From Pseudarthrobacter defluvii (GTDB taxonomy: Bacteria; Actinomycetota; Actinomycetes; Actinomycetales; Micrococcaceae): a DNA stretch of 64,000 bases. How positions within the stretch are numbered: the stretch's first letter is position 1; every line of letters begins with the position of its first letter. Positions 4,132 through 63,644 of this stretch are shown here, piece by piece. A program made the translations under genes and the position numbers. The notes beneath the pieces were generated by a model. That model made no database searches and was not told where the DNA came from. It was given only the letters and a program-made list of their open reading frames with translations. Location of the stretch: assembly GCF_030816725.1 (NCBI RefSeq), contig NZ_JAUSYG010000001.1, positions 2,356,001-2,420,000 on the forward strand, read 5' to 3'.

Positions 4132-4146
4132 ACGGAAAAGCCCTTA

Positions 4147-5891: not shown

Positions 5892-5892
5892 C

Positions 5893-6849: not shown

Positions 6850-6898
6850 GCCCAGACCAGAGTGTCCCCTAACCCGGCTACCAGCATCAAGAGGAAGC

Positions 6899-28929: not shown

Positions 28930-29439
28930 GTGAATACAAAAACTTGTGCTGACTGCAATTGCTCGTTCGAACCGTCGCGAAAGAGTCAAACATTCTGTTC
29001 CACCCGGTGCGCCAATCGGCACCGGGACCGCAAACGCCGGCTCACCCATCGTTCAGCAGTGGCTCCGGCGCCGAAGACGAACGCCCCACACCTCAAAGCC
29101 CAACTCCAAGCGATCAAACGTCGACTGGAATCCACGACAACGTCATGTCAACGCCAGCGAGACATACTCACCTCCAAGCTTCGGGCCCAGGCGTCCGAAA
29201 TCGACAGGCTCGAAGCCGAGAAGTCTGACCAGCTCCGGGGCAACAACCTCTTGCAGTCAGAAGTCGCCCGCCTGAAACGCGCACAAAGGACCAATGTCCA
29301 GGATCTGGCACATATCGCGGCGTGGCTTGTCTCAATTGCCCAGGCAAAGGGAGTGGCGCTTGACCTCAGGACATTGGAAATCCTTCGCCGACGTGGATGG
29401 GATCCTGCGAACCGGCAGGCAGGAGTCCCGCGGCTGTGA
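28930..29439 (+). CDS. Zinc-ribbon/coiled-coil protein upstream of the relaxase
   Basis: This is a 169-residue protein. An N-terminal CADCNCSF...FCSTRCANRHRDRKRR looks like a treble-clef zinc ribbon of the MYM or CGNR type. A long coiled coil follows (about residues 50-120) with LRAQASEIDRLEAEKSDQL. The GTG start at 28930 is inferred. Its stop overlaps the relaxase start (GTGA), so it is probably an accessory protein for DNA processing at oriT. Confidence 0.65.
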   Translation: MNTKTCADCNCSFEPSRKSQTFCSTRCANRHRDRKRRLTHRSAVAPAPKTNAPHLKAQLQAIKRRLESTTTSCQRQRDILTSKLRAQASEIDRLEAEKSDQLRGNNLLQSEVARLKRAQRTNVQDLAHIAAWLVSIAQAKGVALDLRTLEILRRRGWDPANRQAGVPRL

Positions 29440-32400: not shown

Positions 32401-32999
32401 AACAATCTCCGTCGTGGGGCGCAGCCGTCGCGGCATGGCGAAAGGCCACAGCCCTCAGCCGCCCGAGTGCTGAACGCATACTGGCCCAGGTCGGCTACGA
32501 CACCACCCGCGCCCACGACCGCTGTGCTGTTCTCAGCACACGCTTGCGTCGCTTCGTGAAGGGGATGCCGTCGACGGCTGTTGGACCCATGACCGAGAAA
32601 CTTACGCCCAGCCGCCCTGACTTGGCGGAGATGATCGAGCAAGTCAAGGCACGCATCTCCCAGAGGATCGAGACCGTAAACGTTGCAGCTCTGACAGGGG
32701 ACCCTGAGTGGAAACGTGCTCTGCTCGAAGCCGTCGGAGAGAGCAGCAGCTGCGAAACCTGGCAGCTGGTCCGTGACGTTGCCGTATTTCGCGACAGGTG
32801 GGCGCTGCCGGACTCTCCCCTGCCCCTGGGCCTGCCTCCGGCCGACTATGAGTGCGAACAAATTGCCCAGCGTGAACTACTCAGTCAGGCCATCGACAAC
32901 GCCCATTCCCGTGTAATACCTCCTCACCCCGGAACCAGTTCAAGGGAATTGCACTTTCCACAGCAGGTCGTCCTTACCAGCGCAGGCTGGCAGCTCTAA
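29436..32999 (+). CDS. MOBF-type conjugative relaxase-helicase (TraA/TrwC-like)
   Basis: This is a protein of about 1187 residues. The N-terminal relaxase domain has the HUH motif LHTHLVIAN near residue 190 and GVDLTFSVPKSVSVLWAL-type text (VGFDLTFSVPKSVSVLW). The helicase half has Walker A MVGPAGTGKTTTL near residue 523 and Walker B LIIIDEASMVS near residue 635. A RecD-like ending has GYATTAHRSQGVTVD and LYVSMTRGR. It nicks oriT, stays bound to the 5' end and unwinds the strand for transfer. The start is GTG 29436 overlapping the previous stop, or ATG 29442. It is the only relaxase in the window and appears intact. Confidence 0.93.
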   Translation: MTMSIARLSAQSGLRYLFKTTMMNDLAVSPADATTYYMNAGTPEGRWIGAGLRGIDRTAGAPVTETDAKAVFDSAEHPDTLHPLGRPHNQPSVVDNKTAPPTVRHAVVGFDLTFSVPKSVSVLWALSPRLIEEQILRTHHEAVAATLSWLEENVIHTRAGRNGVAHIGTMGAIAAAFDHWESRTGDPQLHTHLVIANRIQRVTDGAWVTLDSRTLYKAAVAASEHYNGLLFDALHRTLGSATEIRSPSANTRNPSQQLTGIDDELIREFSNRSRLINLETDRLVAEWTTDHSHPPTAATIIKLRQQATLATRTPKADLATPLRELSIQWRARSIARGFQPAAVTAAVQRSKDSPFPFTDFTSDWISSVATLARERVAARRSTWNRWNLLAEAERVCAQIRCRTAADRSALISAVADAAEQQSVPLNDYRYSLPPSAAPDLRLRQRSVFDFHGSRLYTDTSTLAWEDAIMGARNDDGGPVVPADVVMDSLEHVGHAKRPELHSDQRAAVADIILSGHRLDAMVGPAGTGKTTTLSAVKAAWEAEHGAGSVVGLAPAAASADVLGRELAMATENVTKWLHESAGQGACFRAERFFAIQAQLKMSHVGERRIIAFAQEAAHLAATQERWCFRANQLIIIDEASMVSTSQLAALVHQAREADAKILLVGDPGQLDAIDAGGVLGWLDREGKATRLSTVWRFHEEWERASSLQLRRGEYSAIADYARHGRIRHGSYVDMADKAYRAWQEDTRAGKSSILIAADNETVGLLNERAQADRVAHGEVDPEHTLLLSDGLRAGSGDTVIARGNNRKLVDSDGNFVSNGTLFDVQQIYLRDASLLARRRDTGASVILPGAYLESSVELGYATTAHRSQGVTVDTGHTVVTQGRLTRELLYVSMTRGRAGNFAYVSEGDDDDHPAVDPSLQLSWQGILGEVLAAEGAERTAHEVRDAELRKADSLERLYGEYDYLAQIAAGLDLKQWMDEKAPGASQEFEQSPSWGAAVAAWRKATALSRPSAERILAQVGYDTTRAHDRCAVLSTRLRRFVKGMPSTAVGPMTEKLTPSRPDLAEMIEQVKARISQRIETVNVAALTGDPEWKRALLEAVGESSSCETWQLVRDVAVFRDRWALPDSPLPLGLPPADYECEQIAQRELLSQAIDNAHSRVIPPHPGTSSRELHFPQQVVLTSAGWQL

Positions 33000-35813: not shown

Positions 35814-36326
35814 TTAGAAGTCAGCAATCAGCTGGTGAGCAGCCTTGCGCCACTCAACAAAGGCGGGATCATCATCAGTCAGAATTCGGGGCGCAGGCTC
35901 CTTGTGCGCCTGCAGCCCGACGCATCCCGCAGTCCGGGTGTGCATCCTCAGACGTTCGACGGCGTGCGGGAGCCGTTCATGAAAGGCGAGCGGACCGAAG
36001 CCCGGGTCATCTTGAGTGTAGGAGGCGAGCTCCGCTCGGTGCAGCGCGTACAGCTCAGCCACAATCTCAGGGTGCCGCCACCAGCAATCGGGAACGACCG
36101 ACGTCGTCAGTTGGTAAGTGGCCACAAGCCATCTCACCCAAGAGGTGAGGACACCCCAGACTTCCTGCGACTGCTCAGGCGTCATCTCCCGCCAACGGCG
36201 GGTGACGCTCTTGGAGGCGGAAGGCCCACTAAAAGCAGATCGAAAGAGCTGAGCGGTGATTTCATCGTCCCCAAAGGAATTGGCGGACTGGACGTCGAAC
36301 TCGTCCGTCTCGTCATGGCTGCGCAT
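35814..36326 (-). CDS. DUF4913 protein
   Basis: This is a 170-residue protein. WGVLTSWVRWLVATYQLTTS, PDCWWRHPEIVAELYALHRA and the PAFVEWRKAAHQLIADF ending match DUF4913, a family found on actinobacterial conjugative elements next to the coupling protein. It overlaps the coupling-protein gene by 14 bases, so they are co-expressed. Role unknown, probably accessory to transfer. Confidence 0.8.
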   Translation of the reverse strand: MRSHDETDEFDVQSANSFGDDEITAQLFRSAFSGPSASKSVTRRWREMTPEQSQEVWGVLTSWVRWLVATYQLTTSVVPDCWWRHPEIVAELYALHRAELASYTQDDPGFGPLAFHERLPHAVERLRMHTRTAGCVGLQAHKEPAPRILTDDDPAFVEWRKAAHQLIADF

Positions 36327-38136
36327 CCGGCACCCCTTCCGCCTTCTGCTGGCGTTCCCTGTGTCCGTCGGCCAATACGCGCTCCATCTCGGCTTTCAGC
36401 CGGCGCAGCTCCCCTGCGTCCTTGCGCTTGTGCCACTCAAGAAGGTCCAGAAGTATCGGTCGAGTACGCCGACCCAGCATGAGCGCCGTTCCCGCGGGCA
36501 GCCGCCGTATTTCATCCAGAGCGATCACGGGGCTTTCGCGTATTTGCTCGCCGTCCTGCCTGCCTTGGGATGACCAGGACCTCGTGGTGAGGGTAAGGCT
36601 GCGTTCACCCAGCAACCCTGCAAGGGAGCGCAGATCCTGTTCGTCGGACCCGCCCCCGAAAATTACCTTGATGATCGCCGAGTCCCAGATGGTCGACGCC
36701 TCTTCAATGGACCAACCTGAACGGGCCTGCGACAACGACTGCAAAACGACGAGTGTTGAGATCCCGATGCCGCCGCCGTCGGACAGTGCCACAGGCAGCC
36801 CGGGCCAAGGGGCGAGATTAGCGATCTCGTCCAGGATCAGCGAAAGGGGAGGCTCCAGCCGGCCGCCCGGTGACACAAAGGCCATCTCGCGCGCTGCATT
36901 GTCGATGTCATCGATCAGTGCTGACAAGTAGGGCCCCGCGGCAGCGGCGCCGGCGCGGGTACCGATGAGATAAAGCGTTCCCCGGTCCCGGATGAACATT
37001 TTTGGATCGAACTCCTCGGACTCATCCTGCGGATTGAGCGCGGCCAGGACTTTCGGCGAGGACAAAGGTGCTACCGCCGCCGAAACCCCAATCCATGAGT
37101 TCGAGGTGTTCCTTGAGTCATCCTCCAGTATGCCCATCAGGTCTGCCTGCCATCCCAGCGCAGCCCCCGGCCGGCCTAGAATCTCGAGAGCTTCCCGCGC
37201 CAAGACAGGGCTGGATGACCAACGGCGGAATGCCGTCACTCCTTCCCCAGACAAAGCTGCAGCGTGGAGCAGGCATTGCAGAACGATCAGCGAGCGCTTC
37301 TGCCAGGCAGCGTTCTCGCCTTTCATCTCAGTATCCGCAGTAATGACCAGCGCTCGCCGTGTGGCGATATCCGGGTCCTCGCAGCCACGGACTGGCGACC
37401 AGCGAAGCGACGACGGGATCCCCGACATACCCTGCGGGTCAAAGACCGTCACGGGTCGCCCGCCAGTAGCCCTCGCCTTCATCGTCACTACCAGGTTGTC
37501 CGCACGCGTGGATGTCGTGACGACTGCCCCGGGCGCATCAAGAATGGCGTTGATGACGACGTACAAGCCCTTACCGGATCGCGGGGCGCCCTGGATCACC
37601 ATCGACTCCTCCGTGGAGACATGAACGGTGACGCCGCGGGAGCGGCCCAGCGTCCACGACACATCATGCACAGTCGGGTTCACAAGTCCGGGTCGGGTGA
37701 ACTTCCCTCGCTTCCGCACAGCTCTGGCCCCGAAATCGTGGAGGATCTCGGCACGGCGGGCAACGCCATCGCGGTTCAGGATGTCCTGCCGCAGCCATCC
37801 ACCGGACTGCTTCCACCGTCGCCATATGACGACGGCACCTACGGCGAGCGAACCCACCAGAAGCAGCGCGGGGGCCAGGACCCACCAGACAGCGTCGGTG
37901 CTTACTGAACAGCCGGAGCGTGGCGCCACTATCCAGTCCATCCGGTTGGCGAAAAGTCCGACGGCGGCCGCCAGGTTGAAGGGCGACGGCGGTGAAGTGC
38001 CACATCGCCAGGACACCACCACGTGCCCGGCAGCTTGGACGACAGTGCAGAGGCACACGTAGGCCGCCGCGCCAATGAGCCCAGCGGTGACCAACGGGTT
38101 GTCGCTTGCAGCCCGCGGGCTGCCCGGCCTCCTCAC
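36313..38136 (-). CDS. Type IV coupling protein (VirD4/TraG-like)
   Basis: This is a 607-residue protein. Two or three N-terminal membrane helices lead to a RecA-like ATPase with Walker A IQGAPRSGKGLYV near residue 183 and Walker B LSLILDEIANLAPWPGLP near residue 425. The late TLTTRSWSSQGRQDGEQIRE and ALMLGRRTRPILL segments are typical of the TraM-recognition end. It links the relaxosome to the secretion channel. The ATGA overlap with VirB4 shows tight coupling. Confidence 0.92.
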   Translation of the reverse strand: MRRPGSPRAASDNPLVTAGLIGAAAYVCLCTVVQAAGHVVVSWRCGTSPPSPFNLAAAVGLFANRMDWIVAPRSGCSVSTDAVWWVLAPALLLVGSLAVGAVVIWRRWKQSGGWLRQDILNRDGVARRAEILHDFGARAVRKRGKFTRPGLVNPTVHDVSWTLGRSRGVTVHVSTEESMVIQGAPRSGKGLYVVINAILDAPGAVVTTSTRADNLVVTMKARATGGRPVTVFDPQGMSGIPSSLRWSPVRGCEDPDIATRRALVITADTEMKGENAAWQKRSLIVLQCLLHAAALSGEGVTAFRRWSSSPVLAREALEILGRPGAALGWQADLMGILEDDSRNTSNSWIGVSAAVAPLSSPKVLAALNPQDESEEFDPKMFIRDRGTLYLIGTRAGAAAAGPYLSALIDDIDNAAREMAFVSPGGRLEPPLSLILDEIANLAPWPGLPVALSDGGGIGISTLVVLQSLSQARSGWSIEEASTIWDSAIIKVIFGGGSDEQDLRSLAGLLGERSLTLTTRSWSSQGRQDGEQIRESPVIALDEIRRLPAGTALMLGRRTRPILLDLLEWHKRKDAGELRRLKAEMERVLADGHRERQQKAEGVPDAQP

Positions 38137-51062: not shown

Positions 51063-53581
51063 TTAGCGCCCGGGGTTCAATTTGTACTCAGATACACTCC
51101 GCCATGCCTTTTGCTCTGTCCTATACCCCAAGGCCCCTGCGAGCTCTGCAAGATCCTTGGATGTCTTCAATTCGACAAATTCCTGATGGCTGCGCGCGGC
51201 CACGATCACGTCAGTTAGGAGTCTTTCGCGTTGGCCTTGGGTCGGCTGAACTGCCTTAGTTGTGAACGTCGAACTTAGCGTCCGGAGGAGCAAGTTGTAC
51301 GCATAGTAGTCACGCTTTTTCAGGTGTCTCCTGAGTAGCTCCACCGCAGGAATGACCTGAGTGGGATCAGAAAGTTGATAAAGGACGTCAAACCTAAGTT
51401 GAAGGTCTGGATCCTGCCAACTCGCGACGTCACTCGGCCCGTAGTTCAACAACTTGCGAGCAACCTTGAGCTCACCGGCCGTTCTCATAGCCCTGGCTGC
51501 AGTGCGCCATGCGCCGTTGACAGCCCCCCCGAGGTGGACTGCTATTTCCATCAATTGATCCTTGGGAAGACCTCCCCTCTCTAGTTCTTGAGCAACTCGA
51601 AGGAAGAAATTAGTCAAGTCAAGCGTTTCTGAATCAATAGCAGCGGTCTTGAGCGGCCCCAGGAGCTGCAGATATTCCCTGTCTGCCAATATCTCGCTGC
51701 TCAACGCGTGATGCCGGACGCGGCTCGCTCCAAAGTTGAAGGCAGCGGCGGGAACATTCACCCAGCGAGGATCTTCCCTGCCCTCCGGACGTAAAACTTC
51801 CACCATGCTGCTTACGAGCAGTTCTTCAACGGCAGCTTCCACGTCAAGGTTTTCCTGGTTTGCGCTCCTCCGCTGCACCGCATCCAATGCGGCAAGCGGA
51901 ACTACGCTGCGCCAACTGCAAAGCAGGAGGAAGGTGCGCTGGGCTCGAAGACTCAGACGCTCGAATGACCGCTGAAACAACGCATCAAGAATATCCTCCT
52001 TCTTGGCGAGAACGCGCTCAACCTTGTTCGGTATTTTGCCCTCTCTAGCAATATCGCCCAGCACTATTTTCACAACATACGGATGGCCAAAAGTCTCACG
52101 ATGAAGTGAACGAGGAAAGGCTGGGTTGGAATTTAGGGTTGCCACAATACCTAGACGACTGGCGGTTGTTTCAACCAATTCTTGGAACTCATCAAATTCC
52201 ATCCCCCCTATATCGATGGGGTATTGTCCTTTGAAATCGGTGAATCGGGTCGTTATGAGAAGCTTATTAGGCAGACGAAGATTGGACTTGAGTGAAGCAA
52301 AAAGCGCGGCCGGCTCGAGAATGGTTTCAAAGTTATCGAATACAAAAAGAGTCCGATCATCGATATTTCCGCGAAGGGCTGCTTTGAACGCTTCCGCTGG
52401 CTCATCTACGTTATAGCCCATTTCCTTTACAAGCTGGGCATAGGCGCCAGCTGCATCCCCGAAGCTCAAGACCTTGGGCTTCACGGGCACTGCCCCTTCA
52501 GCATCCATGAGATCGACATCCCTGGCGCTGAACCACAGTATAAGATCGAAGTCTCCACGCTCCGCAACAGTATGCAGGACTTGAAGAGCAGTTGATGTCT
52601 TACCGATCCCGCCAGGTCCGCCCAGTGTGATTATCGGATCAATCTCTGAATTCAAAAGTTCATCGAGGAGTTCATGTTCAAGTTCCGATCTTTCTACGTA
52701 GTCGGACTTACGCGGAGGAAGATTCCCCCAGGTGGCCCCTTGGAGGTCCAACTGAGCGAGGCCCTCCGACTCACTCGGTGACAGTAATGTAGGCTCAACA
52801 CTGTAAGCGTGCCCATTGCATCTTTTATGTGATCCAGTAACATAGGACAGCGCCTCAAATGTATGGTCCTTGTCCTTGTAATGGCCGTTCGCGAAAAATA
52901 CATCGGTTCCGCCGGGCAAGGCCTCTACTAGATTAACCGGCAGCGCCTTTTCACCATGCAAAATGAAAAGTCCGCCTGTAGGAAGATTTGCTGGCAATTC
53001 GCGATCAAGCGAAGTAAGGGGGAGATACCTTACTGACCCCGTATGTGTCTCGTGAGCTAGGACCCAGGGGAGATTCAGAAGTCGTAACTCTCTTGACAGC
53101 AGAAACAAGGCGTCGGCCAGTGGGGTCACCGCGCTCGACACTTGTCCTAGAACCTGGGCCCCATGGTCATACTTATTCCTGATGTTCGTAAAACGGGTAA
53201 AAAAGGAAATAATGGCCGATTTCTCCGTTCGGATAGAGCCACTTGGTACGCCCAATGATTGTTCTGTGGTCTCAAGCAGTCTTAACACATGGGCCTGCCA
53301 CTCCTCTGCGGCGACACTGAATCGCTGCGTAACTTGCGCCATGAGTGAACTCGCGTCTTTTCTGAAGGCGGTTTTCGCCGGACCGGTAACCAAACGCTGT
53401 AGCTCATATGACCAGGCACCAACACCCGTAGCCCGGACAAGGCTGTACTCGGCCTCGTAACGGAAATGGTGGTCACGCTCGTTGTCGAGCAGAGACAGGG
53501 CGTTGACTAGCGCTACCTTCGTTAGCATTTCCCCATAACGAAGCAAGGCCTTGAAGTACGCAACATCTCCGTCAACCGCTT
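51063..53581 (-). pseudogene. HEPN-STAND NTPase gene, main part, 5' end cut off by an IS
   Basis: About 838 codons are open up to the IS edge. The N-terminal helical domain has FTNIRNKYDHGAQ, the RxxxxH active-site motif of HEPN RNases. A STAND/NB-ARC NTPase follows with Walker A ITLGGPGGIGKTSTALQVL and Walker B RTLFVFDNFETILEPAA. A helical-repeat C-terminal half follows. This layout is that of Avs-like or NACHT-like antiphage sensors with an RNase effector. Joining across the IS (removing one CTT) restores an in-frame start at 54870 and a protein of 853 residues. A TTG at 53546 could give a shortened product lacking about 25 residues, so partial activity is not excluded. Confidence 0.85.
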
Positions 53582-53647
53582 GGGACTGCCCCCAGTTTTG
53601 TTGACTCCTTAACCTAGCGAGCTTGTGCTCGTGGAAGGATGTTGACC

Positions 53648-53929
53648 ATGCCCACGGCTTATGGGGCGGAGTTCCGCCAGGATGTTATTGATGTGGCCCG
53701 CAAGGGCGAGGCGCCGCTGGCGCAGATCGCGAAGGACTTCGGGCTCTCGGTCACGACGTTGAAGCGCTGGATTGCCATCGCCGAACGTAAGGAATCCGGG
53801 GCCGGCCCTGCGGCCGCGGAGTCGGCCGAGATGCGGGAGCTGAAGAAGCGGAACCGGTTGTTGGAGCAGGAGAATGAGATTCTGCGCCGGGCGGCTGCCT
53901 ATCTGGCAAGGGACATCAACCCAAAATGA
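53648..53929 (+). CDS. IS3-family OrfA (helix-turn-helix protein)
   Basis: This is a 93-residue protein with an N-terminal HTH (VIDVARKGEAPLAQIAKDFG, then LSVTTLKRWI) and a C-terminal leucine zipper (LKKRNRLLEQENEILRRAAA). AAGGA precedes ATG 53648. The stop overlaps the orfB start as ATGA, so orfB can be made by coupled reinitiation. Confidence 0.88.
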   Translation: MPTAYGAEFRQDVIDVARKGEAPLAQIAKDFGLSVTTLKRWIAIAERKESGAGPAAAESAEMRELKKRNRLLEQENEILRRAAAYLARDINPK

Positions 53930-54792
53930 CCTACCCGCTGGTCACGGATCTTGCCGCTGACGGTGTTCCCGTGGCGGTGACCTGCAGGGTGTTGGGATTC
54001 AGCAAGCAAGGCTACTACCGGTGGAGGGCCAGCCCGGTGACAGACCGGGACTGGATCGATGCGCACCTCGTCAACGCCGCCCTGGACATCCACACCGACG
54101 ACCCGGCCTTCGGGTACCGGTTCATCGCCGACGAACTCCCGGAGAAGGGCATCGTGGCGGGCGAGAACAGGGTCCAGCGCCTGTGCAGGGACCACGGCAT
54201 CTGGTCGGTGTTCTCCAAGAAACGGGGCCTGAACCGTAGACCTGGGCCGCCGGTCCACGACGATCTCGTGGAGCGGGACTTCACCGCCGCAGCGGCGAAC
54301 CAGCTGTGGCTGACCGACATCACCGAGCACCCCACTGCCGAGGGCAAGCTCTACCTCTGCGCGGTCAAGGACGTCTATTCCGGAAGGATCGTCGGCTACT
54401 CGATGGACTCGCGGATGAAGTCCTCACTGGCCGTCGCCGCACTGGAGAACGCCGTGCGGGCACGGCGCCCGGAAGGGACCGTGGTTCACTCCGATCGCGG
54501 TTCACAATTCCGGTCACGCCGGTTCGTCGAATCACTCCGTCACCACGGGCTCACCGGCTCGATGGGCAGGGTCGGTGCGTGCGCCGACAACGCCGCAATG
54601 GAATCGTTCTTCTCGCTGCTGCAAAAGAACGTCCTGGACCGTCAGCGGTGGCTCACCCGACAGGACCTCCGGCTGGCCATAACAACCTGGATCGAGAGAA
54701 CCTACCACCGCCGGCGACGGCAAAGACGGCTGGGAAAACTCACGCCCATCGAATATGAAACAATCAACCGGACCGCGCTCACAGCGGCCTAA
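53926..54792 (+). CDS. IS3-family OrfB transposase (DDE)
   Basis: This is a 288-residue transposase catalytic subunit. HTH_21 region HTDDPAFGYRFIADEL, then the DDE integrase core: first D in QLWLTDITEHPTAEGKLYLC, second in VVHSDRGSQFRS, and E in CADNAAMESFFSLLQKN. Full length, with no frameshift seen. Confidence 0.92.
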   Translation: MTYPLVTDLAADGVPVAVTCRVLGFSKQGYYRWRASPVTDRDWIDAHLVNAALDIHTDDPAFGYRFIADELPEKGIVAGENRVQRLCRDHGIWSVFSKKRGLNRRPGPPVHDDLVERDFTAAAANQLWLTDITEHPTAEGKLYLCAVKDVYSGRIVGYSMDSRMKSSLAVAALENAVRARRPEGTVVHSDRGSQFRSRRFVESLRHHGLTGSMGRVGACADNAAMESFFSLLQKNVLDRQRWLTRQDLRLAITTWIERTYHRRRRQRRLGKLTPIEYETINRTALTAA

Positions 54793-54827
54793 GACCCGGA
54801 GTCAACAAAAGCCGGGGCAGTCCCCTT

Positions 54828-54870
54828 CATTCGAGACTCGCTCTTGCATCAGCTCGATAGGCGTACGCAT
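54828..54870 (-). pseudogene. HEPN-STAND gene, separated 5' end
   Basis: ATG 54870 gives MRTPIELMQERVSN, which joins in frame to the main part at 53581 once the IS and one CTT copy are removed (...SNEAVDGDVAYFKAL). The segment ELMQERV...GDVAYFxALLxYGE is what I recall from related actinobacterial genes. Confidence 0.75.
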
Positions 54871-54959
54871 CCACCTAGGCTCGCACAGATTGAGCCTGAT
54901 GTCAGCGGGGCGGGTCAATAGGCACGTTGCGCACGATTCAGGGGCAACTCCCGCGCAGA

Positions 54960-55340
54960 CGAAGAAGTATCTGGATCCCCTACACAATCGGCAGCGCAAT
55001 GATCTGGCCGGCCCAAACACCAGGGAATTTCACACCGCCAAGAGAACACGCGGAAGGAATGTCCTCATCGCCGATCGAATGGATCTCACGCTCGAACGCA
55101 TCCCACTTCACTTCTCAGTGGAAGCGCCAACTTGGAGAGGCAGAGGCAGTACCACCCACAGAGGTTTGAATGGTTAAGCACCACCTTCAGGGGGTACGTG
55201 GATTACTTCCCCTTACACGACCTCATCGAGCCTAGCTCCGAGTGTCAGGAGATCGAGTACTTCCTGAAGCCGAACGGACCGATCCAACCAGGGGCAGTGT
55301 TAAGTCGGGATCTTCCTGCCAAGCCCTGCTCCCCACCTCC
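54960..55340 (+). pseudogene. DUF6994-like pseudogene with two frameshifts
   Basis: Three frames give successive blocks: IWIPYTIGSAMIWPAQTPG, then RTRGRNVLIADRMDLTLERI, then TFRGYVDYFPLHDLIEP and EIEYFLKPNG. In order they match a family recalled as DUF6994 (YTIGG..FP, RG...IADRFDLTLECI, FRGYVxFFLLQDLV). The N-terminal third is absent. Between 55340 and 55628 nothing further is recognised. Confidence 0.5.
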
Positions 55341-55628
55341 TCGCCGCCAGGGAGCACCCCCAAACTAAGTGGGCGAGAATCTGTCGGGAGGGGAGTTCTT
55401 TCAGCCGTGGGAGGATGTCGCTTGGCAAGCCAACCCTGCCCCATCGATGCCGAGCTCGGCTCCTAATCCCGGTCTGAACCTTCATTGGACCACGCTGTGG
55501 TGGTGCACATACCGAATCGAACGCGTACGATCAACGCATGTCAGCCGTCCAGGTTGGGAAAAGCCCATACGATGGTATGCGCATCATAAACATGCGCGCT
55601 CCACGCCATCGTTCAGAGCCGAGTTGCA

Positions 55629-56591
55629 ATGCCGGCCTCTGAGCGAAGGCGCGAGCCGAACTGGAAGAAAAAGCCAGACGGGCTTTTGAAGCTCTTAACC
55701 ACGAAAAGTCGCGGTCGTCTGATTGCTTGGATAGCTGGTCTCTACGCAGTGCCAATCGTTTTGTTCGCGATCCTCTACGAATGGCTGGACCTTCTGCGCG
55801 ACAACGGAAGCCCCATTCAAAACTACGGTCAAGCTCTCTTCTTCAGTCTGATAATCCAGGCGAGCGGAGGATTCTTGGACATTACGACGTCCGGACCTTT
55901 GGGTCGTTCATTAGTTGCTACTCAGGTGTTAATTGGATTTTCGTGGGCTGCCTTCCTTCCTGCCATTATCCTTATTCGCTTAACCAACCCGGACACACGC
56001 AGCCTATATTTCGCCCACAAAATGGCCTTCAATCCAGATACCGGCCAATTCGCTATCCGATATGTTAGCTTCTCCCGCTTGTTGATTTTTAACACCAACC
56101 TCACCGTCTGGGCGCGGATCCCAAAGCCGAATAGTGGGGCTTGGAACAATCTCCCGGTGCAGGTGCGATCTTCTGTGGAGTCGAAGCATCGATTTGGCAA
56201 CATACGCCCAGAGACGCCATTCATCGTCTACACAGACCCCAACAGAGACGCCTTCGCGCGATTTCCGAAAGATATTGAAGAAGTCTTCTTGGATCCGGAG
56301 CACTTCAAGGGGTTCAAAAAAAAGAGCATTAAAAATGACGCAATCGTTACCATCGACGTCGCGGGCGGCACCAATGCGGGTGCAGTCCACGCATTCCACG
56401 AGTACAGGTACAGCGACATAATCTGCGGCGTTCCCGTCAACGTGCAGGATCGTCTCGGAGGACCCAAAGACTGGAGAAAATTCAACCAGTTTTATGACCT
56501 ACGCGATTCTGAAGACGGCCAAGTGAAGTGCTTCCAGTGTCAATACCACCCGAGATGTAGCCTCGTCAATAAGTACGAAGGAGCACCGTGA
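55629..56591 (+). CDS. Kir-like two-helix channel protein with a degenerate filter
   Basis: This is a 320-residue protein. Outer helix GRLIAWIAGLYAVPIVLFAI (about 28-48), pore helix NYGQALFFSLIIQASGG, inner helix ATQVLIGFSWAAFLPAIILI, then a Kir-type soluble domain starting RSLYFAHKMAFNPDTGQFAI with RYVSFSRLLIFNTNLTVWAR. Where KirBac channels have TVGYGD the sequence has SGGFLD, so potassium selectivity is unlikely. The tail ends with CFQCQYHPRC, a possible metal site. The stop overlaps the next start as GTGA. Probably a membrane pore or sensor working with the DUF1704 peptidase. The start at ATG 55629 lacks a clear ribosome site. Confidence 0.72.
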   Translation: MPASERRREPNWKKKPDGLLKLLTTKSRGRLIAWIAGLYAVPIVLFAILYEWLDLLRDNGSPIQNYGQALFFSLIIQASGGFLDITTSGPLGRSLVATQVLIGFSWAAFLPAIILIRLTNPDTRSLYFAHKMAFNPDTGQFAIRYVSFSRLLIFNTNLTVWARIPKPNSGAWNNLPVQVRSSVESKHRFGNIRPETPFIVYTDPNRDAFARFPKDIEEVFLDPEHFKGFKKKSIKNDAIVTIDVAGGTNAGAVHAFHEYRYSDIICGVPVNVQDRLGGPKDWRKFNQFYDLRDSEDGQVKCFQCQYHPRCSLVNKYEGAP

Positions 56592-57703
56592 ACAGCTCAA
56601 TCAACCAGCTGGCTAAAACATACAGTGAGCTAGTGGCGAGGCTGAAAGTCGACCAGTACGAGGTGCCTTTGAACCTGGCAGACGAGGGCAGGCTCGTTGA
56701 GAAAGCCTATCAATCTGGGTTGAGTCATAATCCTGAGTTCCAGTTCACGCCGGTCTCGGAACAGGCGATTGATGAACTCCTGCAATTCCGGATCACCATG
56801 ACTGCATTCGACAACCCCTGGGTTCTTCTGTTGGCCACCACAGTGGACTACATGATTCAAACACTCATGGACTGCCGCGCCCACAACTCGACGGCAATCA
56901 CGACGCGAACCGTTGCAATGTTCGGCGATGTTTCGGCTGCCACTCTGGGCGTGGCCGAGACAGAACTTGAAGCGCCCTACGCGGCAACTACTGAGGAATC
57001 GAACTTGGACGCGAAAGGCCTAGCGGATGTCTTTCGTCGCGCGTTGTCGGCAGTATCGCTTACAGACTGGTCAATAACCGTCGAGCCCCGCATGAACGCC
57101 ATGTTGGATGTAAGCAGCGAGCGTCGCGAGATCCGCATTAGAGGGGGGTCGTTGTTCGGCCGCACCATGGTCACCCGTCTCCTCGTGCACGAAATTGGCT
57201 GTCATGTATTCCGGTCGGCGTCGGGCCAGCGCCAACCGATGCGACTCGCCGGATTTGGGCTGGGCGACTACTTGTCCACGGAGGAGGGGCTAGCTGCCTA
57301 TCTCGAAGATAAAAGTGGTCTCTACGATGCGGTCGACTCGCGGAGGTTTGCTCTGCGATATTTGGCCGCGTCGTGCGCCCTCGAGCACGGGTTCTTTGAC
57401 GTCTATAAGGAGCTGAGAGCACATGCAGATCACACACAAGCCTTTGAGACCGCAGCTCGCTCAAAACGGGGGATAGCAGACACGTCGCAACCCGGCGCTC
57501 ACGTGAAGGACAAAGTCTATTTCGAAGGCCTGAAGCTCGTTTCCGACCACTTGAAAGAACACCCGGACGACCTACCGCTCCTTTACACGGGCAAGGTTTC
57601 CCTGAGCATGCTCCCTTTGGTTAGGGAGTCCATCGGGCGGGGAGAGCTCAATCAGGGCGAATTCCAGCCGGAGCAAATCCCGCTGCTTCTCGCGACTCTT
57701 TAG
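56588..57703 (+). CDS. DUF1704/MATCAP-like metallopeptidase
   Basis: This is a 371-residue protein. LLVHEIGCHVFRSASGQRQP carries the HExxxH zinc motif, followed by YLSTEEGLAAYLEDKSGLY with the third ligand Glu (the 'QEGLA' motif). These are the marks of DUF1704, related to tubulin tyrosine carboxypeptidase-like enzymes. It is of normal length for the core domain. GTG 56588 overlaps the channel stop, so the two proteins are made together. The substrate may be the channel or a cell protein; this is inference. Confidence 0.78.
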   Translation: MNSSINQLAKTYSELVARLKVDQYEVPLNLADEGRLVEKAYQSGLSHNPEFQFTPVSEQAIDELLQFRITMTAFDNPWVLLLATTVDYMIQTLMDCRAHNSTAITTRTVAMFGDVSAATLGVAETELEAPYAATTEESNLDAKGLADVFRRALSAVSLTDWSITVEPRMNAMLDVSSERREIRIRGGSLFGRTMVTRLLVHEIGCHVFRSASGQRQPMRLAGFGLGDYLSTEEGLAAYLEDKSGLYDAVDSRRFALRYLAASCALEHGFFDVYKELRAHADHTQAFETAARSKRGIADTSQPGAHVKDKVYFEGLKLVSDHLKEHPDDLPLLYTGKVSLSMLPLVRESIGRGELNQGEFQPEQIPLLLATL

Positions 57704-58134
57704 TCATCGTCGTCCGTTCTGACCTCTATGGCGTACACCGTGGCAAGTCTGCAGAGCACTTACCTTGCCTGGAATAATCGGTGATCCGCTCGTAATGCCG
57801 TCTTTCGTCCTAGTAAATCCGCTGCCACTACGAACCGCTTCTCCCGAGGTATGCGGCCGGCGGTGCGGCTGAAGAGCTTGGTACCTGAAGCTCCGGAACC
57901 ACAGGGTGCTGCCGCGCCTGGCGGCTTTCAGAGGCTTTGGCAGCACCGCGAACCCGAGGCGACTCAATTCCTTGACTCCTGTTGATGCCGAGGCGATCGT
58001 TGTCTTTGCTTCCCATGTGAAATTCAAGAAGCAGCGGCCCTCGAGGTTCAGGAGTGGACTTCGGTTTTGCTTCGGAGAAAAGGCCGCAGAGGCGGAGTCC
58101 TGGCATGCGAGACTTGCCCCACCTCGAACTCAGC
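57704..58134. other. Intergenic stretch, nothing recognised
   Basis: 431 bases between convergent transcription units. Open frames on both strands show no family character or ribosome sites. Confidence 0.4.
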
Positions 58135-58347
58135 TTATGTGCGTTCGATAAGCTTCTTGAGCTGAGCGTCGTAGACGTAGTCGGTGATCTCGCCGGACAT
58201 GATCATTGCGACGGCCTTGTTGATGATCTCCATCGGCACCACGAACCACTCCGAGGGGTCGTAGTCGCGTCCTTTCCGGTCGACCTGCGTTAGGTCCAGA
58301 CGCACCTCGGCGAACACCCGGTGCAGAAGGTGCTCCAGCCACGAGGC
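58135..58347 (-). pseudogene. C-terminal remnant of a GIY-YIG (T5orf172-type) nuclease
   Basis: In frame after the helicase stop the sequence reads ASWLEHLLHRVFAEVRLDLT, then GRDYDPSEWFVVPMEIINKA and ITDYVYDAQLKKLIER. This is the usual ending of GIY-YIG proteins of the T5orf172/MUG113 group (LExxLHxxF...EWFxVP). The catalytic GIY and YIG parts are missing. Confidence 0.5.
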
Positions 58348-59343
58348 TCAATCATCGCCGTCAAACTTCTTCGTCTTGAAGGTGAAGTTCTGCGCGAGCA
58401 CCTGCTCCATGAGGAGCGATGCGGTGATGGCCTTGAGCATGTTGTTGACCGAGACCTTCACTTCGCCCTGCGAGGCGTCGGGCTCGGCGATGAGGTTCGT
58501 GAACTGCGCGTGGGATTTGCCGGGGCTGTCACGGGTGACCCGGCCGATGATCTGGATGACCTCGGTGAGCGAAGCTCGGTAGCCGACAGTGAGAGCGTGC
58601 TCGGCGAAGGGCCAGTCGAAGCCCTCCTTGGCCATGCCCAGCGCGATGATGATGTCGACCGCATCGCGGTCCTTGGACGCTGCGTGGGCCAGGTAGTGAA
58701 GCGTGTCGCCGCGCTTCTTCTGGTCGGTGTCGTCGACGAGGTCGGCCACGCGGAGGATGGCTCCAGTGTCCTGCCGGTGCACGCGGATGATGCCGGTATC
58801 CGGATCGGTTCCATCGACGTGGCCGATGACGTCGATGATGCGACCGACTTCCTCGAGCTTGTCCTTTGTGGACTCCCCTGAGTTGACGCTCGGAATGTGC
58901 ACGATGGTCTTCTTGTCGAGGTCCAGCACTTCACCGATCGCGTCGGTGTAGCGGCCCTGGTAGAAGTGGTGGCCGATGCCGAGCGAGTGCAGGTGCTCGT
59001 ATCCGTTGAGCTGGTCGTAGTAGTTGAAGGTGACCGGCGTGAACTTTGCTTCGTCCTCTGGCGAGAGCACCGGGACTGAGTCCCCGCGGAAGTAGGATCC
59101 CGTCATCGCGACGATGTGGACATCGCTGCCGTTCATCACGTCGCGCAGGAGAGCGCCGAGCCGGCTCGACTCGGTGTCCGCGGAGACGTGGTGGAACTCA
59201 TCGATAGCGAGCACCGTGCCGTTAAAAGACTCCGGTGCCAACCTCTCGAACGCGAAGCGGAGCGTCGCGTGAGTGCACACGAGCGTTGCCTCCGGCCCCT
59301 CGAGGAAGCTGATAAACGCGTCGACCTTGCCTGCCGAGGAGCC
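58348..59343 (-). pseudogene. DEAD/DEAH helicase of a restriction system, both ends lost
   Basis: About 331 codons are open from the IS edge. Motif II is LAIDEFHHVSADTES, motif III VAMTGSYFRGDSVP, and motif VI EVIQIIGRVTRDSPGKSHAQ. The N-terminal Walker A region is missing, replaced by the IS at 59344. The C-terminus stops at KKFDGDD, where relatives continue for about 200 residues (recalled). It is not expected to work. Confidence 0.82.
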
Positions 59344-59372: not shown

Positions 59373-60218
59373 CTATGCGATAGCTAATTGGTTTTCTTGC
59401 GTCCAGTTTTCCCAGTAGCGCTTCGGCGTCATGCCGTTCAGGGATCCATGGGGCCGTTCATGATTGTAGATAGCTTTCCATTCGTCGGCCAAATACTTGG
59501 CTTCGGCCATGGTGTCCATGATTTCTCCGGAGAGTTGTTCCCTTCTGAACTGGGCGTTGAAGGACTCGATGAAGCCGTTCTGCCAGGGTGATCCCGGGTC
59601 AATGAAGGCGGTATCCACGCCGGCGGTGTTGCACCACTCAATCAGTGCGGCGGCGGTGAATTCGGGCCCGTTGTCACACCTCACGTAGGTCGGGGCGGTG
59701 CCGGTCTCGGCGATGATGTTCTCCAACACAGCGACCACGTCGGCGGCCTTGAACGACCGGCGCGGAATGACCGCCAGCGCCGTGCGGGTGTATTCGTCGA
59801 TGACGTTAAAGAACCGGATGTGCCGTCCGCAAGAGGTCACATCGGACTGGAAGTCGAAACTGACCACATGCATCGGGTACTGGGCAGTTAGGCGCTTCTG
59901 TTCACCGGCGCCGGGCCCGGTCCGGCGCTTCTTCCTCGCCCGGGGTTTACAGACCAGGCCTTCATCGCGCCAGAGCCGTCGCACCCGCTTCCTGTTCAGC
60001 ACCACGCCGTCCCACTCAGGCTGAGCCAGCAGGTGCCAGCGCACCTTCCGCCAGCCCCACGCGGGGTGCTGCCCGGCGACGGCGCGCAAGGCTGCACGGA
60101 GCCGGGCTTCCTCAAAGCCCATATCGGGCTTCTTCTTGCGGAACGCGGACCGGTTCTGCCCCAGCACCGCGCACGCGAAACGCTCGGACGCCCCGAACTT
60201 CTCCACCGCCATGCGCAC
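59373..60218 (-). CDS. IS3-family OrfB transposase (DDE), copy 1
   Basis: This is a 281-residue protein. HTH_21 part ALRAVAGQHPAWGWRKVRWH, then the DDE core with HVVSFDFQSDVTSCGRHIRF, YVRCDNGPEFTAAALIEW and GSPWQNGFIESFNAQFRREQ. It is read as an OrfAB fusion by -1 slippage at GGGAAAA (60248-60254 on the minus strand), placed in the X XXY YYZ phase just before the orfA stop. Confidence 0.92.
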   Translation of the reverse strand: MRMAVEKFGASERFACAVLGQNRSAFRKKKPDMGFEEARLRAALRAVAGQHPAWGWRKVRWHLLAQPEWDGVVLNRKRVRRLWRDEGLVCKPRARKKRRTGPGAGEQKRLTAQYPMHVVSFDFQSDVTSCGRHIRFFNVIDEYTRTALAVIPRRSFKAADVVAVLENIIAETGTAPTYVRCDNGPEFTAAALIEWCNTAGVDTAFIDPGSPWQNGFIESFNAQFRREQLSGEIMDTMAEAKYLADEWKAIYNHERPHGSLNGMTPKRYWENWTQENQLAIA

Positions 60219-60241
60219 GGCACGACGGCGGGGTTCGGGGC

Positions 60242-60520
60242 TCAGAATTTTCCCTTGGCCACCTCGTTCAGGATGTCGATGGCCAGTTCCTTCTCCGCCA
60301 GCAGCCGCTTAAGCCGGGCGTTCTCTTTCTCCAGCTCCTTGGTCCGTTTGGACGCCTCGGCGTTCTTCTCGGACCCGTACTGGTTCAACCACCGATACCA
60401 GGTCGCCTCGGTAACCTGGAGCTCCTTGATTACCTCGACCATCGGGCGCCCGTCATTGAGCATCTTCTGGCCCTGCCGGACCTTGGCGATGACCTGCTCA
60501 GGGGTGTGTCTGCGTGCCAT
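60242..60520 (-). CDS. IS3-family OrfA, copy 1
   Basis: This 92-residue HTH protein reads RRHTPEQVIAKVRQGQKML, QVTEATWYRWLNQYG, then a leucine zipper (KELEKENARLKRLLAEKELA). ATG 60520 is preferred; AGGAGG lies 13 bases upstream. It ends ...AKGKF at the frameshift site. Confidence 0.88.
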   Translation of the reverse strand: MARRHTPEQVIAKVRQGQKMLNDGRPMVEVIKELQVTEATWYRWLNQYGSEKNAEASKRTKELEKENARLKRLLAEKELAIDILNEVAKGKF

Positions 60521-60600
60521 GATTCGTGAATTTCCTCCTGCGTCCATTCTCGGACACGAAACTCACACAAACACTGGACTTCTATCTGGGGACCCAACCA

Positions 60601-61175
60601 AGTGCGGCGGCGGTGAATTCGGGCCCGTTGTCACACCTCACGTAGGTCGGGGCGGTGCCGGTCTCGGCGATGATGTTCTCCAACACAGCGACCACGTCGG
60701 CGGCCTTGAACGACCGGCGCGGAATGACCGCCAGCGCCGTGCGGGTGTATTCGTCGATGACGTTAAAGAACCGGATGTGCCGTCCGCAAGAGGTCACATC
60801 GGACTGGAAGTCGAAACTGACCACATGCATCGGGTACTGGGCAGTTAGGCGCTTCTGTTCACCGGCGCCGGGCCCGGTCCGGCGCTTCTTCCTCGCCCGG
60901 GGTTTACAGACCAGGCCTTCATCGCGCCAGAGCCGTCGCACCCGCTTCCTGTTCAGCACCACGCCGTCCCACTCAGGCTGAGCCAGCAGGTGCCAGCGCA
61001 CCTTCCGCCAGCCCCACGCGGGGTGCTGCCCGGCGACGGCGCGCAAGGCTGCACGGAGCCGGGCTTCCTCAAAGCCCATATCGGGCTTCTTCTTGCGGAA
61101 CGCGGACCGGTTCTGCCCCAGCACCGCGCACGCGAAACGCTCGGACGCCCCGAACTTCTCCACCGCCATGCGCAC
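60601..61175 (-). pseudogene. Truncated OrfB transposase, copy 2
   Basis: Identical to copy 1 OrfB up to RCDNGPEFTAAAL, then runs into copy 1 end sequence (GWVPR) and stops at 60582. The catalytic Glu is lost, so it is inactive. Confidence 0.9.
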
Positions 61176-61198
61176 GGCACGACGGCGGGGTTCGGGGC

Positions 61199-61477
61199 TC
61201 AGAATTTTCCCTTGGCCACCTCGTTCAGGATGTCGATGGCCAGTTCCTTCTCCGCCAGCAGCCGCTTAAGCCGGGCGTTCTCTTTCTCCAGCTCCTTGGT
61301 CCGTTTGGACGCCTCGGCGTTCTTCTCGGACCCGTACTGGTTCAACCACCGATACCAGGTCGCCTCGGTAACCTGGAGCTCCTTGATTACCTCGACCATC
61401 GGGCGCCCGTCATTGAGCATCTTCTGGCCCTGCCGGACCTTGGCGATGACCTGCTCAGGGGTGTGTCTGCGTGCCAT
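61199..61477 (-). CDS. IS3-family OrfA, copy 2
   Basis: Same 92-residue protein as copy 1 (60242-60520), intact, with the GGGAAAA slip site at 61205-61211. It could still make OrfA, which can act as a regulator of transposition. Confidence 0.88.
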   Translation of the reverse strand: MARRHTPEQVIAKVRQGQKMLNDGRPMVEVIKELQVTEATWYRWLNQYGSEKNAEASKRTKELEKENARLKRLLAEKELAIDILNEVAKGKF

Positions 61478-61557
61478 GATTCGTGAATTTCCTCCTGCGT
61501 CCATTCTCGGACACGAAACTCACACAAACACTGGACTTCTATCTGGGGACCCAACCA

Positions 61558-63644
61558 CGCTCGATTCGCGAGGCGATGTCGGCATTAGCTCGCGCTGTAG
61601 TCTGGTCCCGATCCGAAATCCACAAGGCATATCGATCCTTACCCTTAATGAACTCGTCCGAACCCAGGAATGACTTGACGAATTTTGCGGCGCTCGCGTC
61701 GCTTCGGATGCTGTCTGCTTCGGCAGGGCTTAGCACAAGATTGCCGCCGTCAAGCGGCATGCTTCCCGAGCGCATCACCGGGAGGCCATTTCGCGGCTTC
61801 GTCGATTTGGACACATAGATCGTGGCGGCGTCAACCAGGTACCCATTTATGTTCTGGGCCGCGATCTGAAGCCCATCGGTGAAGATGAACTTCTCTCCCA
61901 TCCGCCCCGCTCGAAGGTTGATTACAGCGACCGTAACGCCAGCATTCCTCTTGGCGTTGTTTTCCCATTTAAAGGACGTGTGCGCGAAGCCGATCTCAAT
62001 GCCTTTATCGAAGATAGTCGGGAACATCAACCCGACGTGTTCGCCTTGAGATACTGAATTAGTGGTCACAAATGCGAGCTCTGCTTGTGTCCCGGCAATG
62101 TAATCGGCACCTTTGACGAACCAGAGCGCAATGTAATCGAGGTTCTTGTTGAAAGGGCGATTCCCGAATACAAACGGGAAGTCGGCCTTCATCTCGGTGG
62201 TCTGATACTTCGCCCCTTTGTACGGCGGGTTGCCGATCAGATAGATCTCCTCGCCGTCGTTGGGACAGACATCGTTCCAGTCGACGCGGGTTGCGTTACC
62301 CTGCTTTATTTGGCCGGTCTCCTTGAGCGGGATCAGCGGGATCGAGATGTTGAACTTCTCCTTGAACTCAGTGTTCATCTGGTGCTTGGCGATCCAGAGG
62401 GAGAGGATAGCGACCTCGACAGCGAAGTCGTCGATCTCGATCCCGTAGAAGTTCTCGATATTGATCCTCGACTCGGCGAACAGCACGAGGTGCTTATTAT
62501 CCAGTTCGGCCAGCCGTTCCAGAATCGCGTGCTCGAGCTTGCGCAGTTCCTTGTAAGCGATGATCAGGAAGTTGCCGGAGCCACAGGCTGGGTCGAAGAC
62601 CTTGATGGCGCTGATCCGGTCGAGCAAGGCTTCGAGCTTTTTCACGGAGTCGAAGCTCTCGTCGAGGTCGTCCTTCAAGGCGTTGAGGAAGAGTGGCTCG
62701 ATTGTCTTGAGGATGTTAGGCACCGAGGTGTAGTGCTGGCCGAGATCGCTGCGCTTTCCGGGAGTGACAATTGCCTGAAACATCGAGCCGAAGATGTCCG
62801 GGTTGATCTCGCGCCATATGAGTTTGCCGGCGTTGATGAGCTCTTCTCGCGCCTTCTTGGTGAACATCGGCACCACGTGTTCCTCGGACATCGTGAACAG
62901 TCGGCCGTTGACGTAGGGAAACGCCGCGAGATGTTTGGGCTTGTCGGAGGCGTCTGCTGTGTCCAACGCCGTGAACAGGTCTGTGAGGAAGTCCGCGGTG
63001 TCCGAGCCGTCGTCCTGGGTGTGGGACCCGACGGCATTGGTGAACTGGCTCTCGGCAAAGATACCCGTGTCTTCGGCGAAGTAGCAGAACAGCAGACGAG
63101 TGAAGAACAGATTAAGCGCGTGGCGTCCACGTGGTTGCTTAAGAAGATCAGGGTTCGCCTGAAGCAGCTCATCGAACAGCTTGCCCATGCGTTCGGCAGC
63201 CTTGACGTCCGCATGTGTTTCGGCGACGTACTGCGCCTTCTCCATCCCCGCCCAGGGCAGGAAGAAGGTGAAGTGCTGGTCGATGTCCCTGATCGGGAAC
63301 CCGATTGTCTCTCCCGTCTTGGTGTCCATGGCCACGAGCTCGTCATAGTCGGTGACTATCACGAAGCGCGTGCTGAAGCGCACGACGTCAGGAGACGACT
63401 TCAGCTCCTCCAAGACCTCGAGGGGGTCCCCTGTCGTCTCCTTGAAGTAGACGACCTTCTTCTGCGCGACCTCGGTCGCAGGGTTGGCTGCGACGTTCAG
63501 ATCGCCGGTGCGCAGGCGAGTGACGCTGCTCTGAGGCTTTCCGTAGGCGAGGAGCAAATCGAAAATGAACTCGCGGTCGTACGTCTGACCGCCGGCGAGC
63601 GGCGCGACGCGCTCTTCGATGGCTTTCAGATTTAGCCTTGCCAC
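61558..63644 (-). pseudogene. Class I SAM-dependent DNA methyltransferase of a restriction system, 3' end lost
   Basis: About 695 codons are intact from GTG 63644 (GGGATAAG upstream). An N-terminal domain (VAPLAGGQTYDREFIFDLLL...FSTRFVIVTDYDELVAM, nuclease-like or specificity region) leads to the methylase core. Motif I is KVFDPACGSGNFLIIAYKEL, motif IV IYLIGNPPYKGAKY. The coding sequence enters the IS at 61557 and stops after GWVPR. It resembles the MmeI/YeeA-type group of large methyltransferases. The C-terminal target-recognition part is probably missing, so DNA specificity is likely lost. The helicase fragment downstream was likely its operon partner. Confidence 0.85.

Follow-up and report, generated by a model that had tools for sequence, protein, structure and literature searches.

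The 64,000-nucleotide stretch of DNA analyzed here, referred to throughout as the window (contig NZ_JAUSYG010000001.1, positions 2,356,001 to 2,420,000 of the forward strand, in the Pseudarthrobacter defluvii assembly GCF_030816725.1), contains two overlapping genes, one for a KirBac-like channel with two transmembrane helices (2TM) and an altered selectivity filter, and the other for a metallopeptidase of the MATCAP/DUF1704 family. Sequence comparisons support a functional pairing of this channel with a MATCAP-type peptidase, and the recurring distant pairs suggest that peptidase and channel form a unit of a new kind, which may serve phage defense. The pair is composed of the following features:

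55629–56591, plus strand: KirBac-like 2TM channel gene (ATG start, 320 amino acids, SGGFLD at the filter position, C-terminal cysteine cluster)
56588–57703, plus strand: MATCAP/DUF1704-family metallopeptidase gene (GTG start, 371 amino acids, HEIGCH and TEEGLA)
56588–56591, plus strand: GTGA start/stop overlap of 4 bases, the channel stop lying over the peptidase start

The original prediction, made from the sequence of the window, had described two intact genes sharing a GTGA, and both frames are indeed open from end to end, without internal stops; the overlap likely reflects translational coupling of the channel and peptidase genes. The database entry for the window channel, P0001, has 280 amino acids and starts 40 residues downstream of the 320-amino-acid call, which is supported by the alignment of a Pseudarthrobacter homolog, P0002, across its entire N-terminus; the start of P0001 has probably been set 40 residues too late. 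The G+C content is 51.6% in the channel gene, 56.8% in the MATCAP gene and 60.3% in the window. A promoter scan of positions 54780–58400 was uninformative (0 sites versus 1.6 in shuffled sequences).

Recurrence of the channel–peptidase pairing

Homologs of both proteins are present in Pseudarthrobacter sp. BRE9 (channel, 74%; peptidase, 84%), each on a 688,115-base contig, which shows co-occurrence, not adjacency. More distant MATCAP genes were collected by scanning genome contigs with the MATCAP alignment and taking the top 80 loci out of 164 relatives; 76 of these 80 were scored for neighbor counts, L019, L035, L039 and L060 being left out because their MATCAP frame was lost to the overlap filter. 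In L012, from a Microthrixaceae metagenome-assembled genome (MAG), the order is reversed, the MATCAP gene preceding the channel gene, and the two again overlap by GTGA; this channel is 33% identical to that of the window over 309 amino acids and carries a TVGYGD filter. In L044, from a Flavobacteriales MAG (3960–6636, plus strand), a Kv-type channel gene and a MATCAP gene overlap by 11 bases, and the channel, which matches Pfam Ion_trans (E 1e-20) and Kv1.2–Kv2.1 in the PDB (E 5e-21), has the filter IGGYGD and ends in a C-terminal region some 300 residues long. Pore proteins, recognized with a profile grown from the channel family's own matches, account for 2/56 tight same-strand MATCAP neighbors and 0/620 other genes (p = 0.0067). 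A search for both families beside each other had been proposed together with the original prediction, and its outcome is a pairing that recurs, in reversed order in one case and with another channel class in the other, and is unlikely to be due to chance.

A single origin of the Kir-linked MATCAPs was considered and rejected (p-AU 0.0012; maximum-likelihood tree of 44 rows), the group for this test having been chosen after the first tree was seen and the L012 branch being long. Such a split in the tree may indicate that the Kir pair has been assembled twice, or may reflect a long-branch effect of L012; if the tree is true, MATCAP would have been re-paired with Kir channels.

Assignment of the peptidase

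The peptidase scores 115.8 bits against Pfam PF08014 (MATCAP), whose gathering cut-off is 27, and falls within this family; the zinc motif of DUF1704, the name carried by one database relative with a PF08014 domain, is present as HEIGCH and TEEGLA, as had been predicted. The residues H201, E202, H206, E232, E233 and G234 are unchanged across 27 aligned relatives, and the combination of HExxxH and EEG serves as the motif definition of the MATCAP/TMCP family in passages of PMC10499314. A search of the PDB with the peptidase profile at E ≤ 0.001 returned only two KIAA0895-like/MATCAP sequences (best E 1.3e-29). The TIGR02421 QEGLA-motif proteins are members of the same superfamily, and the 128.7 bits obtained for the peptidase, far below the curated cut-off of 338.65, place it outside that equivalog. 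Known MATCAP/TMCP enzymes are presented, in the same passages of PMC10499314, as C-terminal carboxypeptidases that trim C-terminal tails, with TMCP1 acting on tubulin tails; since this is the known activity, trimming of the channel tail would fit better than internal cleavage.

Pore, filter and cysteine tail of the channel

The best match of the channel in the PDB by phmmer is KirBac3.1 (E 5.3e-8, residues 23–139), and the channel profile matches KirBac1.1 (E 2.4e-14) over profile positions 34–157, a stretch that runs from the pore through the linker into the beginning of the cytoplasmic domain; the match to Pfam Ion_trans_2 (E 0.0089) lies under the family cut-off. The protein has the 2TM pore module of KirBac channels, with a Kir-type inner helix and linker, and does not have the potassium filter TVGYGD, the predicted SGGFLD occupying the position where KirBac3.1 has TIGYGK and KirBac1.1 TVGYGD. 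The KirBac-type architecture proposed in the original prediction holds for the pore module, whereas a Kir-like soluble domain is only partly supported: the channel profile gives a weak second collinear match to KirBac1.1 near the end of the domain, and a profile–profile comparison with four Kir-like sequences (E 1.2e-14) follows a path along nearly the whole channel; no IRK or IRK_C match was found in the Pfam scan of the channel.

A family search from three sequences reached 14 proteins, among them five new family members, P0055–P0059, with 29–44% identity to the window channel; P0058 is a fragment without the tail and was omitted from the channel tree, and P0055 is a near-copy of the L012 channel. 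In the eight-row alignment, SGGFLD occupies the filter position in the window channel and in P0002, the BRE9 homolog, TGGFLD in P0057 and TVGYGD in the other five rows, P0055 being counted among them, and the three GGFLD rows constitute one clade (99/100 in the tree without P0058). The description of the filter as lost is thus appropriate for this clade but not for the family at large; because TVGYGD is kept in five of the eight rows, a non-selective pore is not a general requirement of the family. Between bounds picked by the analyst (residues 62–88), the pore loop is identical at 26/27 positions in the window and BRE9 channels versus 214/293 elsewhere (p = 0.003), and at 17/27 versus 123/290 in the comparison with P0057 (p = 0.03). 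Filter loss through gene decay was rejected on the grounds that these residues are better kept than the remainder of the protein in the filter-altered clade. The altered filter is the mark of one clade, and the pore loop is, judging from these alignments, its best-kept part.

The C-terminal tail announced as CFQC...C is found in the channel translation as CFQCQYHPRC. Its cysteines C301 and C310 are present in 7/7 rows with a tail and C304 in 6/7, and upstream of them C266 is present in 8/8 channel rows; such a set of four conserved cysteines may form a metal site.

Other partners of related MATCAP genes

In five loci (L001, L005, L007, L045 and L047), the MATCAP gene lies tightly behind a gene for a long P-loop protein; with a criterion equal for both groups, such partners represent 5/56 tight neighbors versus 6/620 other genes (p = 0.001), and with a length limit of 400 amino acids 5/56 versus 18/620 (p = 0.03). 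AAA and TPR domains are supported by Pfam in the L001 and L005 partners and more weakly in that of L045; the L007 and L047 partners, 46% identical to each other, have the P-loop motif and no AAA match at the limits used. A single protein of 1280 amino acids in L037 (Porphyromonas sp. MAG; 3241–7080, plus strand) combines TPRs with a C-terminal MATCAP; its P-loop-like region, which the motif script did not list, was recognized by eye and by its weak resemblance to L045 (E 1.4e-4), and its N-terminal part is, we presume, similar to DUF4062. In L014, from a Clostridia MAG (4919–7059, plus strand), the stop of a gene for a 2TM protein overlaps the MATCAP start by one base (TAATG).

Pfam domains were counted in 51 of the 56 tight neighbors, five frames of 102–130 amino acids being omitted. 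RimK was matched by 6/51, indicating that ATP-grasp ligase genes recur in other MATCAP branches. With channels, STAND-type proteins, a 2TM protein and ligases among its neighbors, MATCAP looks like a peptidase module that is exchangeable across partners.

Some further observations concern these relatives. The soluble domain of the L014 2TM protein has no recognized fold; the protein weakly resembles, in PADLOC (E 0.0078), a 2TM membrane protein found in CRISPR operons of type III, and a recombinase gene is located nearby. Among the scanned neighbors, 4/51 matched 7TM_transglut. The MATCAP genes of L049 (a Nanoarchaeota archaeon), L056 (Patescibacteria) and L074 (Gracilibacteria MAG) adjoin ATP-grasp ligase genes, with which they possibly form ligase/peptidase pairs for C-terminal tails. 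In L147 (1–1818, plus strand; genome G1163, of Litorilinea's phylum), a frame of 1410 amino acids has, by eye, a repeat-like region followed by a MATCAP-like domain.

Rarity and spread

Among 297 relatives, a close MATCAP was found only in the window's own genome, and a match of any kind in 5/297 (next best E 5.8e-20). PF08014 was detected, with the seed genome included in each case, in 12/296 Actinomycetota genomes and in 2/201, 10/148, 2/199 and 5/146 genomes of the phyla of L005, L044, L014 and L001, respectively; most of the PF08014 genomes placed on the tree sit in a separate clade of 25 rows. The only strong full-length channel matches among those listed are the window itself (E 2e-144, in 396 Actinomycetota) and L012 (E 1e-145, in 296 genomes of its class), and the next matches listed in the same two genome sets are pore-only (E 4e-11 and 8e-13). 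Ten genomes with other MATCAPs had no full-length channel, and pore-only matches were found in 5/10 (best E 2.8e-6).

Spread of the channel by viruses or plasmids was rejected, no match being found in viral contigs, plasmids or phages. The MATCAP peptidase had no relative in viral contigs, distant matches in 107 plasmid records (all below 60% identity, and at most 27.3% among the matches listed) and one distant phage match. In Pseudomonas phage Y1 (L165, OQ572403, an UNVERIFIED and unannotated record), positions 4001–4708 (plus strand) encode MATCAP-like sequence with 25% identity to the window peptidase.

The mobile element and its cargo

The pair is carried by an element resembling an integrative and conjugative element (ICE), which also has TrbL, NlpC/P60 and an ArdC-like gene; tyrosine integrases are located outside the window, and one of these lies near a tRNA-Leu. 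The remaining features of the element and its cargo are listed below:

29397–32999, plus strand: TrwC relaxase of the ICE-like element carrying the pair (domain scan)
36313–38136, minus strand: TraG/TraD coupling protein of the ICE-like element (domain scan)
51063–53546, minus strand: STAND-type NTPase (P-loop GGPGGIGKTS; AAA_16 and NB-ARC below Pfam cut-offs)
53639–54792, plus strand: transposase gene pair between the STAND gene and the channel–peptidase pair (reading of translations), which we take to be of IS3 type
61539–63644, minus strand: MmeI-like restriction-methylation gene, neighboring cargo, cut short beside insertion sequence (IS) copies

The STAND-type NTPase is nearby cargo and could at most be a candidate member of the system. 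The original placement of the two genes among defense genes is reasonable, with some weak points: a helicase-C fragment near the pair scores just under its Pfam cut-off, the STAND-type NTPase is below cut-off as well, and the MmeI-like gene is truncated. The channel–peptidase unit is probably horizontally mobile, and its position in ICE cargo, together with MATCAP genes beside STAND-type genes elsewhere, makes a defense role plausible. As a separate observation, two near-identical IS3-type copies adjoin at 59373–61504 (minus strand) between the helicase-C fragment and the truncated MmeI-like gene; the second gene of the second copy is shortened, and the arrangement looks like IS-mediated loss.

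Proposed mechanism and alternative readings

We put forward tentatively, as possible rather than probable, that the peptidase gates the channel via its cytoplasmic C-terminus and that the unit halts the infected cell by ion leakage. A MATCAP-type carboxypeptidase would control a KirBac-like, presumably tetrameric channel, and the unit would most likely turn on the membrane of its own cell to counter phages or other invaders. The peptidase would sit on the cytoplasmic C-terminal region of the channel, where C266 and the tail motif C-x2-C-x5-C probably hold a metal and latch the tail. Infection or another stress may activate or free the peptidase, which would trim the channel C-terminus; the latch would be lost, the pore would open, ions would leak through it and the cell would stop. 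The leak is expected to be one of potassium in the TVGYGD branch, and the pore to be less selective in the SGGFLD/TGGFLD branch. The original prediction had the peptidase clip the channel tail, or another target, upon infection and so open a non-selective pore; of that interpretation, the functional pairing of channel and peptidase is supported by the recurrences, the clipping of the tail to open the channel is possible, and the defense role is plausible from context.

Several points weigh against this proposal. The L012 pair is located on a MAG contig of 3,587 bases and low coverage, and without it the enrichment of pore proteins, already dependent on a profile derived from the family itself, becomes 1/55 versus 0/620 (p = 0.08); the Kir-linked MATCAPs of the window and BRE9 do not form one clade with that of L012. 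The channel family is very rare among the matches listed. The soluble domain by itself gives no significant Kir match in the profile–profile comparison and no match in the PDB. P0055 is short of one conserved cysteine, and the channel C-termini have no common tyrosine or phenylalanine end. PADLOC-DB 2.0.0 searched at E up to 1 gives 0 families for the channel and the peptidase, and no PADLOC family matches the STAND-type NTPase of the window. The Kv–MATCAP pair of L044 has three photolyase-family genes downstream on the other strand and no defense genes in its neighborhood.

The main alternative, which we regard as somewhat unlikely, reverses the flow of information: the channel would sense membrane potential, potassium or, by way of its cysteines, metal or redox state, and the peptidase would be the effector, released or activated to trim cellular or phage C-termini, with FtsZ, the bacterial relative of tubulin, as a speculative target. 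The constancy of MATCAP across STAND-type, Kir-like, Kv-like and 2TM partners would be expected of an effector with exchangeable sensors, and the Kv-type partner in L044 could sense voltage; the arrangement in the Porphyromonas protein, in which MATCAP is C-terminal to the TPRs and the P-loop-like region, and the action of TMCP1 on tubulin tails (passages of PMC10499314) point in the same direction. However, an altered and strongly kept filter suggests that the pore itself matters, and the ATP-grasp ligases beside MATCAP (RimK in 6/51) suggest that other branches act on different substrates. A regulatory unit outside defense, for ion homeostasis, stress or redox, in which the peptidase would be a slow turnover or processing enzyme and the ICE location incidental, is quite unlikely. 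KirBac channels otherwise serve ordinary cells, the Kv–MATCAP locus lies among DNA photolyase genes and neither gene of the window pair has a PADLOC match, all of which would fit such a unit; against it stand the rare and patchy distribution, the cargo position in the ICE, the G+C content of the channel gene (51.6%) below that of the window (60.3%), the recombinase gene near the L014 2TM–MATCAP pair and the STAND-type partners.

That the two genes are unrelated neighbors joined by insertion-sequence and ICE traffic would agree with the IS copies flanking the region and with the rarity of the family. It is nevertheless very improbable, because both homologs are kept in BRE9 (74% and 84%), the reversed pair of L012 still overlaps and a channel of another type overlaps MATCAP in L044, with an enrichment at p = 0.0067. 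Beyond the gating model itself, a wider and rather unlikely claim would make MATCAP an exchangeable module used generally in prokaryotic immunity, joined to STAND receptors in some lineages and to tetrameric cation channels, Kir-like or Kv-like, in others. This would yield peptidase-gated channels that work like gasdermins but have a true ion-channel pore, including a natural Kir-type channel whose filter evolution has changed to GGFLD; the tubulin-trimming MATCAPs of animals would in that case be related to a conflict peptidase of bacteria.

Relation to known systems

The channel resembles KirBac1.1 and KirBac3.1 in its outer helix, pore loop, inner helix and Kir-type linker into the cytoplasm, and differs from them in the SGGFLD/TGGFLD of its clade in place of TVGYGD, in the extra C-terminal cysteine tail, in giving no Pfam IRK or IRK_C match and in a soluble domain that by itself is not recognizable as Kir. 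The peptidase shares with the tubulin carboxypeptidases of the MATCAP/TMCP family (KIAA0895L, PDB 7z5g/7z6s) the HExxxH and EEG motifs and the block RxKRGxxDTSxPG..KDxVYxxG, and differs in being prokaryotic and coupled to a membrane channel. The STAND-type or P-loop loci (L001, L005, L007, L045, L047 and the fused L037) have the same peptidase module in tight or overlapping genes, with an NTPase-type protein, not a channel, as the partner.

The two-gene logic of a membrane pore beside a peptidase is also that of the bacterial gasdermins, from which, according to passages of PMC8866957, a caspase-like protease cuts off about 20 residues at the C-terminus, some of these proteases having TPR or NACHT domains. 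The pore protein and the peptidase of the window are unrelated to those of gasdermin systems; the pore protein is KirBac-type by sequence, and its Pfam scan gave no match to a gasdermin family. RexAB-type systems follow the same two-gene logic, growth being stopped by an effector that acts on the membrane; in passages of PMC12894663, lambda RexB figures as an ion channel, and P. putida RexB caused membrane damage with no measurable depolarization. They differ in having no peptidase, RexA being DNA-binding. In peptide-processing systems beside actinobacterial conflict systems, a zincin-like peptidase releases a C-terminal peptide (passages of PMC7159879), so that, compared by description, a metallopeptidase acts at a C-terminus in a conflict setting; its substrate is a small FxSxx-COOH protein, with no channel, and the term DUF1704 is absent from the main text of that paper, the passages found naming neither MATCAP nor DUF1704. 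By term search, MATCAP and KIAA0895 are likewise absent from the main text of another paper on conflict systems, PMC8195603. No system with the Kir–MATCAP pairing was found in the titles and abstract openings of the open-licence PMC papers listed by the literature searches, a body of literature with bioRxiv outside it, and the earlier statement that no described system has this pairing is consistent with that literature.

Biological meaning

The series TVGYGD, TGGFLD and SGGFLD within one family represents a natural experiment on the Kir-type filter under new selection, and the conserved cysteine tail would provide a direct, testable handle on the proposed gating. If the proposed reading is true, a peptidase-controlled ion channel would join the membrane-acting defense systems and KirBac-type channels would be linked to immunity, and the MATCAP-family peptidases, best known for tubulin detyrosination, would acquire a biological role in prokaryotes.

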